From contig NZ_FOPZ01000019.1 of NCBI RefSeq assembly GCF_900113615.1, positions 1 to 64,000 on the forward strand: DNA of 64,000 nucleotides. The letters run 5' to 3'. The notes under the pieces were generated by a model. It was given only the letters and a program-made list of their open reading frames with translations. It was not told the origin of the DNA and did no database searches. Below, piece after piece: positions 3,621 to 37,705 of this stretch (position 1 is its first letter; each line of letters begins with the position of its first letter). The DNA comes from Halorubrum aquaticum (lineage in GTDB: Archaea > Halobacteriota > Halobacteria > Halobacteriales > Haloferacaceae). A program made the position numbers and the translations under genes.

Positions 3621-4349
3621 ATGACGGAGAACCTCCCCCCGGCGCTTGACCGGGCCGTCCGCGTCGCGAGCGCGGCCTTCGCGATCGTGTTCGCGCTCGT
3701 CGTCGCGAGCGCGATCGCCGCGCCGGTCGCGGACCTCGCGGTCCGGGCCGGGCTCGTCGCCGACGGCGGAAACGGGTGGCAGTTGCTCCGGACGCTCGGC
3801 CAGTTCGCGGGCTTCCTCGCCGCCGTTGGCGGCTATCTCGTGTTCACCGACCAGCGGGACCTCCTCCGGATCGCGCGGCCGTCGCTCCGGGAGGTCGGGA
3901 TCGTCGTCGGCGCGGGGGTCGCCCTCTTGGCGCTCCAGTACGGCTCGCTTCTCGCCCTCCAGCAGGTCGGGCTCTCCACCGGGCAGAACCAGGCGGTCGT
4001 CCCCGCCGGCGACCCGGTCGGCTACTACCTCGCGATGGTCGCCGTCTCGCTTCTCGTCGTCGGGCCGGTCGAGGAGGTCCTGTTCCGCGGCGTCGTCCAG
4101 GGCGGGCTCCGGCGGGCGTTCGACGCCGCCCCGGCGATCCTGATCGCGAGCGCCCTCTTCGGGCTGGTCCACCTCTCGGGGATCCAGGGGACCTTCGCCG
4201 AGCGGTGGGCGTACGTCGGGGTCGTGGTCCTGTTGGGCTGCGTGCTCGGCCTCCTGTACGAACGAACGGAGAACGTGTTGGTCCCCGGGCTCGCCCACGG
4301 CGTGTACAACGCCGCGATCTACGCGGTGTTGCTCGCGAACGTGCTCTGA
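3621..4349 (+). CDS. CPBP-family intramembrane metalloprotease
   Basis: A 242-residue membrane protein with about seven hydrophobic helices. All three Abi/CPBP (CAAX protease-like) motifs are intact: EEVLFRG at 151-157 (paired Glu and Arg), FGLVHLSG with F180 and H184, and HGVYNA with H226 and N230. These residues bind zinc in the Rce1/CPBP family. The ATG at 3621 is chosen over longer in-frame starts because it follows the pgi stop by 25 nt and begins just before the first helix. Substrate unknown. The gene points into the repeat region that starts near 4405. Confidence 0.88.
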   Translation: MTENLPPALDRAVRVASAAFAIVFALVVASAIAAPVADLAVRAGLVADGGNGWQLLRTLGQFAGFLAAVGGYLVFTDQRDLLRIARPSLREVGIVVGAGVALLALQYGSLLALQQVGLSTGQNQAVVPAGDPVGYYLAMVAVSLLVVGPVEEVLFRGVVQGGLRRAFDAAPAILIASALFGLVHLSGIQGTFAERWAYVGVVVLLGCVLGLLYERTENVLVPGLAHGVYNAAIYAVLLANVL

Positions 4350-4404
4350 GATCGGGGTCGACGTGACCTGAGAGTCGATCCATCCCGATGTGTTCTCCGC
4401 GGTC

Positions 4405-4830
4405 GGCGCGCCTCCGAGTGCTCCGGATGGGCACGAGGAGCCCGCGAGGGACGCGGCGAGCGCGAGCGGTGAAACCGCGAGTCGTGAGCCGCGAGGCTGG
4501 GGAGGCGTGAGGTGCGGTCGCGGTGCTGTTGCGGGGTGGGACTCAAAGGGGCAGTCGCGAGGGCGATGGCGGCCGACGTAAGCAGCGTGGCGCTACGCGC
4601 CACGGGCAGCCGGCGGCGGAGCCGCCGGCGACACCACAGCGAGCGGAGCGAGTGAGGAGCGCAACGAGGCCATCGAGTCCTCGTGACTGGGGCTTTGGCG
4701 GTGTTCTCCGCGCTAACAACGACGTACGGCCGACCGACTGGGGCTTCGTGGATACTCCCAGTAGAGGAATCAACTGCGTAGTATCGACCGACTGGGGCTT
4801 CGGAGACGTTCTCCGCGCTCACTCCGAGTC
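4405..4830 (+). repeat. Hairpin-array element, copy A
   Basis: Near-complete copy. A leader (GGCGCGCCTCCGAG, about 4407) is followed by the 26-nt core at 4492-4517. The inner 5' block reads TCAAAG (4543-4548), GGG (4549-4551), CAGTCGCGAGG (4552-4562). The 3' block reads CCTCGTGACTG (4679-4689), GGG (4690-4692), CTTTGG (4693-4698). The two blocks can pair over about 17 bp around a symmetric GGG/GGG internal loop. Between them lie hairpins at 4586-4604 and 4609-4629. The 3' module is then repeated near 4737 and 4790 at about 52-bp spacing. Small ORFs here follow the repeat and are not genes. Confidence 0.85.
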
Positions 4831-5130
4831 CCGAAGCAGGAGGTAGATGACGACGACGAGCAGCATCACGTCGAGGCCCGCGATCACCGCGAGCGGGGTC
4901 CCGAACCCCCACTGCCAGGCCCACTCGCTCCCATGCGAGGTGGCGTCCCTGTAGAGCCACCGTCCGAGGGTGGCCCAGAGGACCAGCAACGCGAGGAGTA
5001 GCCAGAGTTCGTCACGGGCCACGACGACGCCCGGAAGGATCTCGTAGGTCGTCACCTGTACGATGGAGGGCGATTCGAGCATTCGGTCAGATATCTGTGC
5101 GTGTGTTGATGTTTCTGTCGCTCGCGACAT
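4819..5130 (-). CDS. Small membrane protein between inverted repeats
   Basis: An ORF of 103 codons from the ATG at 5130; a shorter start at 5082 gives 87 residues (MLESPSIVQV...). Two hydrophobic segments are clear: ELWLLLALLVLWATLGRWLY, and LAVIAGLDVMLLVVVIYLLL at the C-terminus. I do not recognise a family. Its stop lies at the outer edge of the last 3' module of copy A, and its upstream ATG lies at the outer edge of the last module of inverted copy A', so it fills exactly the space between two convergent repeats. It may be a genuine passenger or orphan gene; confidence is moderate because the N-terminal part derives from repeat sequence. Confidence 0.45.
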   Translation of the reverse strand: MSRATETSTHAQISDRMLESPSIVQVTTYEILPGVVVARDELWLLLALLVLWATLGRWLYRDATSHGSEWAWQWGFGTPLAVIAGLDVMLLVVVIYLLLRDSE

Positions 5131-5385
5131 GGAGAACACTGCCAGAGAGCCAGTCGGTCGACGATATGACGTGATGATATTGGCTGCGGTGAACACCGCC
5201 AAAGCCCCAGCCACGAGGACGGCGCACGCTCGCCGCGCTCCTCACTCAGTCGCTCACTTCGCTCACTCCTTCGTTTCGGTGCTCGCGTCGCCTGCGCCGT
5301 CCTCGCGACTGCCCCTTTGAATCCCACCCCACACCGCACAGCCCCGCACCTCACGCCTCCCCAGCCTCGCAGGCACGCGCCACCG
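5126..5385 (-). repeat. Hairpin-array element, copy A' (inverted)
   Basis: Read on the minus strand, the 26-nt core (5344-5369) is followed by TCAAAGGGGCAGTCGC (5305-5320) and, at the far side, GTGGCTGGGGCTTTGG (5199-5214). The enclosing stem is the longest of all copies: 5294-5311 pairs with 5208-5225 over 18 bp with two G.U-type positions. A degenerate extra 3' module (GACTGGCTCTCTGGCAGTG) follows near 5135-5155. The leader is cut short by the 3' end of the nurA-like gene. Together with copy A it forms a large inverted pair around the small ORF at 4819-5130. Confidence 0.85.
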
Positions 5386-5399
5386 CCTCGATCAGCGAT

Positions 5400-6719
5400 T
5401 CAGTACCGGTCCTTCCCCCAGCGGTGGTCGTCGTAGGTCGCCTGCTGGTCGCTGTCGAACCGCTCCTCGAACTTCCGGCGCAGGGCGGCCTTCTCCGTGG
5501 CGTCGATCCGCGCGAGCGCGTCCGCCTTCCCGACCGCCGCGGGCGGCCCCCGCGTCGTCGCCACGTCCGCGAGCACCTGTCGAGTCAGCCGGTCGCGCGT
5601 CTCCGCGTCGCGGGTGAACGCGTAGGGGGCCTCGAGCTTGTAGGTCACGTCGGTCCGCGGGTCGTACAACACCATGAACGTCGGCTCGTACAGTTCGGGT
5701 TCGAGTTCGCGGTCGATCCCGAGCGCGTCGGCGTCGGCCGCCATCGTCCCGTCCGCGCCGCCGCGGCTGTGAAACCACGTGGTGAACGTGAGGTCGTCGT
5801 CGAGGCGGGCGTCTGTCCCGCGACCGCCGTCGTTTCCGCCACGACCGACGTTGCCGCCGCTTCCACTGCCGTCTCCGCCGCTACCGATGTCCCCCTCCCG
5901 CCGTTCCAAGAGTCGGGTGAAGAGCGCGGTGTCGTCGGGCCAGGGCGACTCGAACCCCTTGCGGGAGAGCGTCCGCACGACCGTCCGGCTCGAGGGGTTC
6001 TTCACGAAGCCGGCGAGCGGGACGTCGCGCTCGACGAACCGCTCGACGAGCCGGATGTACTTCTCGACGACCGCCTGGGGTTTCGCCTCCCGGGCGAGCT
6101 CGCCGAGCTCCGGGTCGCGGTCCCCCCAGGTGAACAGCTCCTTGGGGTAGATCGGGCCGTCGAGGACGAGCAGCTCCTCGACCCGGTCGGCGTGGTCGAG
6201 CGCGTGGGTCCCCTCGGCGAGGTAGAGCGCGAGCGCGTGGACGACCCCCTCGGCGTACCGGTTCACCCGCGGCGCGTGGAGCACGCGCTGGCGGGTGTGG
6301 CCGTCGTCGCGTCTCGTCCACGCCCCGTCGAAGTCGGCGGTCGAGTCGCCCGCGTGGACCGTCGCGACGATCGTCCGGTCGCGGTGGAGGTCGAGGTCGG
6401 TCGGCTCCGCGGCCATCGCCGCGTGCGCCACGTCGACGACGAGCCCGTTCTTGAACGTCGTCGGGTTGATCGTTCCGGAGTCGAGCCCGTGGACCGTCCC
6501 GAAGGGGCGCTCCGCGAGCGCCACGTCGTCGATGGCGGTCCGCCGGCGCTCGTGGTCGGCGACGGGCTCGACCACGACCCGGCCGTCCCGCCGGAGCCCG
6601 GTGAGCCAGTCGTTCCACACCCGCCCCGCGAGGTCCTCGTGGTCCGTCGTGTCCACGTCGCCCGCGATCCCGTACGCGAGCCGCGCGATGTTCTCGACGT
6701 GGATCGGATCGAGGGTCAC
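5400..6719 (-). CDS. nurA: NurA-domain nuclease
   Basis: A 439-residue protein with the NurA RNase H-like fold signature: GLDSG with D80, a second acidic strand VLDGP with D187, then GFVKNPSSRTVV and a late YDPRTDVTYKLEAPYAF segment. NurA with the HerA ATPase resects DNA double-strand ends in archaea; the role is inferred from the family. A Gly/Asp/Ser-rich insertion (about 280-310) interrupts the domain and is probably a surface loop. No herA or mre11-rad50 lies beside it, unlike many archaea, so pairing with HerA would be in trans. It is divergent from the transducer gene at 6950. Confidence 0.85.
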   Translation of the reverse strand: MTLDPIHVENIARLAYGIAGDVDTTDHEDLAGRVWNDWLTGLRRDGRVVVEPVADHERRRTAIDDVALAERPFGTVHGLDSGTINPTTFKNGLVVDVAHAAMAAEPTDLDLHRDRTIVATVHAGDSTADFDGAWTRRDDGHTRQRVLHAPRVNRYAEGVVHALALYLAEGTHALDHADRVEELLVLDGPIYPKELFTWGDRDPELGELAREAKPQAVVEKYIRLVERFVERDVPLAGFVKNPSSRTVVRTLSRKGFESPWPDDTALFTRLLERREGDIGSGGDGSGSGGNVGRGGNDGGRGTDARLDDDLTFTTWFHSRGGADGTMAADADALGIDRELEPELYEPTFMVLYDPRTDVTYKLEAPYAFTRDAETRDRLTRQVLADVATTRGPPAAVGKADALARIDATEKAALRRKFEERFDSDQQATYDDHRWGKDRY

Positions 6720-21499: not shown

Positions 21500-22110
21500 A
21501 TCGGTCGGTCAATACACCACCTTTTTCTCGTCGGGTGCCCTCGCTCACTGCGTTCGCTTCGGGAACCGCTCCTCGAAAACCTGGAGGGAAAAAGCCGACT
21601 CCGCCGTCTTCGACGGCTCCGTCGGTGAGCCACTCTATCTCCAGTTCAATACAGACCAAGCAGCGATCGATCCATGTAGTGGCGCGCCTCCGAGTGCCCG
21701 ACAGGGCACGAGGAGCCCGCGAGGCTGGGGAGGTGTGAGGTGCGGGGCTGTGCTGTGGGGTGGGACTCAAAGGGGCAGTCGCGATTCCCGCGAGCACAGC
21801 GAGCGGGAAGTCGAGAGACGAAGTCTCTCGGAAGGACGAAGCCTGACGGCGCAAGCACTGGAAGGAGCGAGCGGCGCGAGCGACTGAAGCGCACAGCGAG
21901 TTACGCGAGTCGTGCGAGGGCGACCGAAGGGAGCCCTCGGGTGGCGAACGGCAGCGAGGCGCTCCGCGCCTCTGGCAGCCGGCGGCTCCGCCGCCGGCGA
22001 CGAAGCCGTGAGTCCCCGTGGCTGGGGCTTTGAAAACAGTCACCGCGCCAGCAACGATCCTCTTTCACTCATCCCGATCCCCATCGAAACATCCGTCCTA
22101 CAAGCAATCG
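21500..22110 (+). repeat. Hairpin-array element, copy B
   Basis: The longest copy. A left flank (GGTCAATACACCACC, about 21505) is shared with copy C. A leader hairpin GTGCCC/GGGCAC lies at about 21693-21708 and the 26-nt core at 21720-21745. The paired blocks are TCAAAG-GGG-CAGTCGCG (21767-21783) and CGTGGCTG-GGG-CTTTGA (22017-22033). Inside are many hairpins, including 21956-21972 (GAGGCGC/GCGCCTC) and 21978-21998 (GCCGGCGGC/GCCGCCGGC). A right flank (CCATCGAAACATCCGT, about 22080) is also shared with C. No gene is supported in 21456-22196. Confidence 0.85.
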
Positions 22111-37217: not shown

Positions 37218-37705
37218 ACGTCGGTCAGTATACCGCCTTTTGTCGTCGGGTAACGACCGATCTCCTGAGCGGTGGCACGCCTCCGAGCGCCCGAAGGGGG
37301 CGAGGAGCCCGTGAGGGAGTTGCGAGCGCTTGAAAAGCGCGAGCAACGAGGCTGGGGAGGTGTGAGGTGCGGGTGCGGCGCTGTGCGGGGTGGGAATCAA
37401 AGGGGCAGTCGCCGGCGGCTTCGCCGCCGGCTGCCAGAGGCGCGGAGCGCCTCGCTGTCGCGAGGGCGACGGCGGCCGAAGTAAGCACCGCAGCGAGCGA
37501 AGCTCTCTCGTCATCGCCAGAAATCGGAGATTTCTGGCGAGCAGTCAGAACGCGACGCGTTCTGACGACATCACGAAAGGCGCAAAGCACCTTTCGAACG
37601 ACAACGAGGCCCCCGAGCCGTCGCGGCTGGGGCTTTGGACGTGTTCACCGCGCCGGCAACCGTCTCCCATTCATCACCCCGATCTCCATCGAAACGTCCG
37701 TACCA
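37218..37705 (+). repeat. Hairpin-array element, copy C
   Basis: A near-complete copy. The left flank (GGTCAGTATACCGCC) and right flank (CCATCGAAACGTCCGT, about 37686) match copy B. The core is at 37347-37372. The paired blocks are TCAAAG-GGG-CAGTCGC (37397-37412) and GCGGCTG-GGG-CTTTGG (37623-37638). Hairpins between them: 37411-37432, 37437-37453, 37514-37540 (12-bp perfect stem, 3-nt loop), 37544-37566 and 37574-37596. The first two are copy B's cassette in inverse orientation. No gene is supported in 37201-37795. Confidence 0.87.

Follow-up and report, generated by a model that had tools for sequence, protein, structure and literature searches.

Two copies of a repeat face each other in a 64,000-nucleotide stretch of Halorubrum aquaticum DNA (the window, in contig C19 of genome G000), and an open reading frame (ORF) for a small membrane protein lies between them, in the gap that separates a CPBP (CAAX protease, Rce1-like) gene from nurA. 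The question raised by this locus is whether the repeats carried the gene to its present place. An earlier note had considered that the two copies, A and A′, could form a composite unit mobilizing a passenger, or else could be independent insertions in the gap. Comparison with related genomes favors, at a probability of about 0.8, the reading that A and A′ inserted separately around a gene already resident in the CPBP-nurA gap.

A family of dispersed hairpin repeats

The features of the gap and its borders are given below, with genes called by a simple codon-bias script.

3621–4349, + strand: CPBP gene (PF02517, 1e-20), left border of the gap
~4399–4818, + strand: repeat copy A (core and UP matches; outer boundary approximate)
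from ~4399, + strand: FAR hairpin region of A
4492–4517, + strand: UP module of A (sequence match)
4536–4559, + strand: core motif of A (sequence match)
to ~4692, + strand: long stem-loop of A
4544–4692, + strand: core stem-loop of A, CAAAG-GGG-CAGTCGCGAGG... / ...TCCTCGTGACTG-GGG-CTTTG
about 4684–4711, 4735–4761, and 4789–4817, + strand: three 3′ RT units of A (read from the sequence)
4819–5082, − strand: small membrane-protein ORF, 87 aa, stop codon at 4819–4821; 16 orthologues in the genus
5083–5130, − strand: supposed N-terminal codons 1–16, most likely the upstream region of the ORF
~5131–5392, − strand: repeat copy A′ (core and UP matches; outer boundary approximate)
5131–5157, − strand: degenerate RT unit of A′
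around 5180–5213, − strand: RT unit of A′
5304–5327, − strand: core motif of A′ (sequence match)
5344–5369, − strand: UP module of A′ (sequence match)
5374–5392, − strand: short FAR end of A′
5400–6719, − strand: nurA (PF09376, 3e-14), right border of the gap

A (+) and A′ (−) do face each other, as the earlier note had described, and their cores and UP modules are matched in the gap; judged from the core matches in G000, such copies are far beyond chance. Both are members of a genus-wide, dispersed, non-coding family of hairpin-forming repeats. From 5′ to 3′, the repeat consists of a FAR hairpin region (GGTGGCGCG...), an UP module (CGAGGCTGGGGAGGCGTGAGGTGCGG), a core (GTGGGANTCAAAGGGGCAGTCGCG), a stem-loop, and at least one RT unit (CGACTGGGGCTTTGG...), with core-to-RT distances that cluster near 105–115 or 145–165 bases. 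RT units recur at about 57 bp; TTTATAA occurs in the units of some relatives, and the units in the window show no clear TATA box.

Predicted RNA folds reach −103 kcal/mol over 200 nt for the core stem-loop of A and −88.5 kcal/mol over 165 nt for A′. The 12-nt stem arms of A pair at 12 of 12 positions. Across 41 copies in G000 and 70 in relatives, the 12-nt arms beside the G-tracts fit their own partners better than those of other copies, a fit reached by 0 of 5000 shuffles. A double hairpin of ~50 bp (CAGCGAGGCGCTCCGCGCCTCTGGCAGCCGGCGGC...CGGCGAC) forms an element inside another, nested at varying positions of the repeat; it is found at 21949–22001, 4583–4632, and 37408–37460 of the window and inside many copies.

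The core was matched 61 times in G000 at ≤3 mismatches (0 matches with a reversed-pattern control) and is present in 49 of the 52 Halorubrum genomes searched. The highest count seen was 185, in G021, using a 17-nt core pattern with ≤1 mismatch. Since ~17 of the 61 matches in G000 lie <500 bp from a contig end, this assembly is probably broken by the repeat, of which G000 may contain more copies than were counted. One genome, G018, carries same-strand core doubles exactly 89–90 bp apart (e.g., C6:34412/34501, C18:6199/6289, C25:136011/136101, and C41:14878/14967), a duplication inside the element that was seen in no other genome among the matches listed. An Rfam search with the repeat gave no structured-RNA match up to E=1, viral contigs held no exact match to a 20-nt core pattern, and a plasmid search returned three partial matches only, covering 11–22% of the query. 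A literature search found no paper recognizably about the Halorubrum repeat.

Of 83 scored copies, a set that includes loci fetched for holding pairs, 33 lie in convergent gaps, whereas 10 of the 56 gaps in the window are convergent; the single copies of G000, taken by themselves, give 15 of 36. The repeat has no orientation preference in tandem gaps. A role as a sense-strand 3′ UTR element was ruled out, as copies in tandem gaps point either way about equally often (19 vs 19). A tendency to point at the shorter gene reached p=0.001 in one gene-calling run and 0.07–0.20 under other settings, and was dropped.

The enclosed gene and its place in relatives

The earlier note had the two copies enclose the ORF exactly, which is true of one side. 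The last RT unit of A (4789–4817) runs up to the stop codon without an intervening 3′ spacer. At the other side, the ATG at 5130 adjoining A′ is very likely not used as a start, because the conserved protein start in the 16 orthologues is the equivalent of codon 17 (window 5082) and an in-frame TAA precedes that codon in G033. With the start at 5082, A′ abuts the upstream region of the ORF and not its start. Similarity between G000 and G033 upstream of the ORF stops about where A′ begins.

The ORF has a dN/dS of about 0.2 against G033 and G011 (dS 0.53 and 0.69; dN 0.11 and 0.14). It matched no Pfam or NCBIfam family and had no relative in the phage collection. The gene seems dispensable, since its orthologues in G014 and G045 contain an in-frame stop codon. 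Elsewhere in the window, an 11-base tandem array (TGAACGGTCGR) occupies 327–502, upstream of an ORF at 532.

In the genus, the usual place of the gene is between mvaD and the Fer2 ferredoxin gene (fer2), which is its ancestral locus. At this locus, G033 retains a nine-codon match to the end of the ORF (a short ghost), G011 has a short gap from which the ORF is missing, and the G000 stretch before fer2 holds no ORF.

The ORF was also looked for in the CPBP-nurA gap of relatives without the repeats, a finding that the earlier note had named as fatal to the composite unit; it occurs so in G033 and nearly so in G011. In G033, the order is CPBP, an HTH gene, the ORF, mscS, a remnant of the repeat into which a beta-lactamase-family gene is inserted, and nurA, with no recognizable repeat module directly flanking the ORF on either side. 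In G011, CPBP is followed by 17 bp, the ORF, a FAR/UP module only, mscS, and nurA. Empty sites, also sought at that note's suggestion, proved to be common: the gap is empty or nearly so in G003, G010, G015–G018, G020, G023, G025, G027, G029, G046, and others. It holds mscS alone in G001, G012, and G024, a single − copy in G004, G008, G014, G026, G031, G036, G038, G045, and G051, and a single + copy in G005, G048, and G050.

A tree of PGI and NurA unites G000, G011, and G033 with G029, G006, G001, and G012 in a supported group. The ORF tree lacks the support needed to settle whether the three ORF copies in the CPBP-nurA gap share one origin. Comparison of this gap in G000, G029, and G006 revealed no visible target-site duplication and no precise pair of empty and occupied sites. 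In the G029 gap (L083), only CGGCGGCGCGCC is left where two FAR ends would stand, which could be the scar of a deletion between them.

A and A′ are 71% identical, while the best other copy of A reaches 84% and that of A′ 81%; by this measure, the two are neither sister copies nor a recent pair. Separate insertion is the best reading because the ORF occupies the gap in G011 and G033 without both copies, because other relatives show an empty gap, mscS by itself, or a single copy, and because A and A′ are not sisters. Of the earlier proposals, it is thus independent insertion that gains support, except that the ORF was in the gap beforehand. Nor would both insertions be into a convergent CPBP/nurA gap, as had been supposed: the gap that contains A is convergent (CPBP/ORF), and the one that contains A′ is tandem (nurA/ORF).

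Under separate insertion, the ancestor of the species group would have carried the order CPBP-ORF-mscS-nurA. In the window's lineage, mscS would have been lost and A would have entered, or expanded, between CPBP and the ORF, with A′ now apparently at the place that mscS holds in relatives, next to nurA. The repeats would be non-autonomous hairpin elements that depend for their movement on an enzyme acting in trans, of the type seen in the transposase-free palindromic repeats of Haloquadratum, and would accumulate between genes, most often in convergent gaps. We infer their mobility from their dispersal and from comparison with these transposase-free repeats of Haloquadratum walsbyi (PMC3119063).

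Facing pairs and the origin of the arrangement

Facing pairs around one short gene are present in six other genomes, and G000 contains a second. Among the matches listed, close pairs (0.4–1.6 kb) in seven genomes comprise at least 15 inward, 1 tandem, and 0 outward; the counts for G001, G021, and G048 likewise refer to the matches listed. When distinct loci are counted among these matches, 9 of 10 are inward, the ORF-fer2 pair of G026 included (binomial p 3e-5 vs 25%), and without the two loci found through the ORF, 7 of 8 are inward (binomial p 4e-4 vs 25%). Pairs 2–4 kb apart (G001, G006, G022, and G004; loci L275–L286) look mostly tandem in a small sample of the matches listed, and many are spaced near 3.0–3.7 kb, unlike the inward pairs at <1.6 kb.

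Genes of recognizable family that are enclosed by facing pairs are Tsr3-like (PF04034), Fer4_15 ferredoxin, PTPS/QueD-like, DUF5802, and NYN. For the first three, 12 genomes were examined that are poor in the element or stand near the window's lineage, and the genes were present in 12/12, 12/12, and 11/12, respectively. Among the cases with recognized neighbors, each was found in several genomes at the same place with no element in flanks of ~1.5 kb: Tsr3-like in G033 and G029, Fer4_15 in G020, G037, G029, G049, and G034, and PTPS in G011 and G033. Residency of PTPS rests on these two genomes, the more distant matches (47–55% identical) being without shared neighbors. A copy or module adjoins Tsr3-like in G011 and Fer4_15 in G017 (modules on both sides), G025, and G033. 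Judged from these neighborhoods, the facing pairs stand around resident genes at the three loci traced.

A composite unit, in which two facing repeats carried the ORF as cargo into the CPBP-nurA gap, would explain why the gene changed locus from mvaD-fer2, and facing copies do bracket the ORF in the window and the ORF plus fer2 in G026. Facing pairs are also over-represented in the counted genomes, being commoner than random orientation predicts. G033 contradicts this account, however: there, as in G011, the ORF is at its new place without the pair, and its neighbor is mscS instead of two repeats. Nor are A and A′ closest to each other, and at three other facing pairs, the enclosed genes are residents of element-poor relatives as well. 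No transposase gene was found between or beside A and A′. The locus therefore fails as a composite transposon, with a passenger that occurs without its elements in G033 and nearly so in G011, copies that are not near-identical, and no linked transposase. Transport as cargo is accordingly very improbable, and the facing orientation has no demonstrated mobilizing role at CPBP-nurA. It is just as improbable that the ORF and its 3′ repeat moved jointly in an old event, with later loss of the copy from G033 and G011 but not from G000. At mvaD-fer2, a copy does face the 3′ end of the ORF ~52–56 bp from its stop in G006, G026, G047, and G048, which leaves a slight chance of an older association between ORF and repeat. 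The junction differs, though, since the repeat unit in G000 touches the stop codon without such a spacer, and A is absent from G033 and G011, the two relatives in which the ORF occupies the CPBP-nurA gap.

Somewhat less doubtful, yet still unlikely, is that inward pairs, with 3′ ends facing, were placed or kept by selection around short resident genes for a function such as isolating them by insulating or terminating transcription, whatever the origin of the pairs. Orientation would then matter, and the gene would not be cargo. The excess of inward pairs is consistent with this, as is the retention of several pairs at the same locus in related species; against it, enclosed genes have no fixed orientation to the repeats and, in some relatives, lack them altogether. 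With separate insertion preferred, the mobile-cassette reading is removed and replaced by a structured repeat family open to study across Halorubrum, in which close pairs, among the matches listed, are inward far more often than chance predicts. The locus also warns against assuming that a gene was moved by the two repeats on either side of it.

Known repeats of haloarchaea

Several repeats described in haloarchaea and their viruses invite comparison. The Class I intergenic repeats of halovirus HF2 are 56–58 bp long and carry promoters (PMC8707807); the Halorubrum RT units resemble them only in their ~57-bp length and AT-rich motif (TTTATAA), and differ in that those of the window are without a clear TATA box. 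Haloarchaeal MITEs (PMC3119063) share with the Halorubrum repeat a non-autonomous, dispersed, and mostly intergenic character. MITEs have terminal inverted repeats and, usually, a target duplication; in the Halorubrum repeat, neither perfect inverted termini nor a duplication of the target site was seen. The SMRs of Haloquadratum walsbyi are short mobile repeats of about 80–110 bp nested in larger palindromic repeats (PMC3119063), much as the ~50-bp double hairpin (CAGCGAGGCGCTCCGCGCC...GCCGCCGGCGAC) is nested in the Halorubrum repeat, although the Halorubrum modules are shorter.

A further likeness in description is to the PATEs (palindrome-associated transposable elements) of H. walsbyi, which are non-coding, palindrome-rich, high-copy repeats with other short repeats nested in them (PMC3119063), all of which holds for the Halorubrum repeat. 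PATEs have palindromes near their ends and termini related to those of an IS605-type transposon; the Halorubrum repeat has strong hairpins with covarying arms, and its ends are approximate. Finally, the "SwitchRepeats" of H. walsbyi are positions that hold copies of one repeat in opposite orientation (PMC3119063), and the CPBP-nurA gap of Halorubrum likewise holds copies in opposite orientation.
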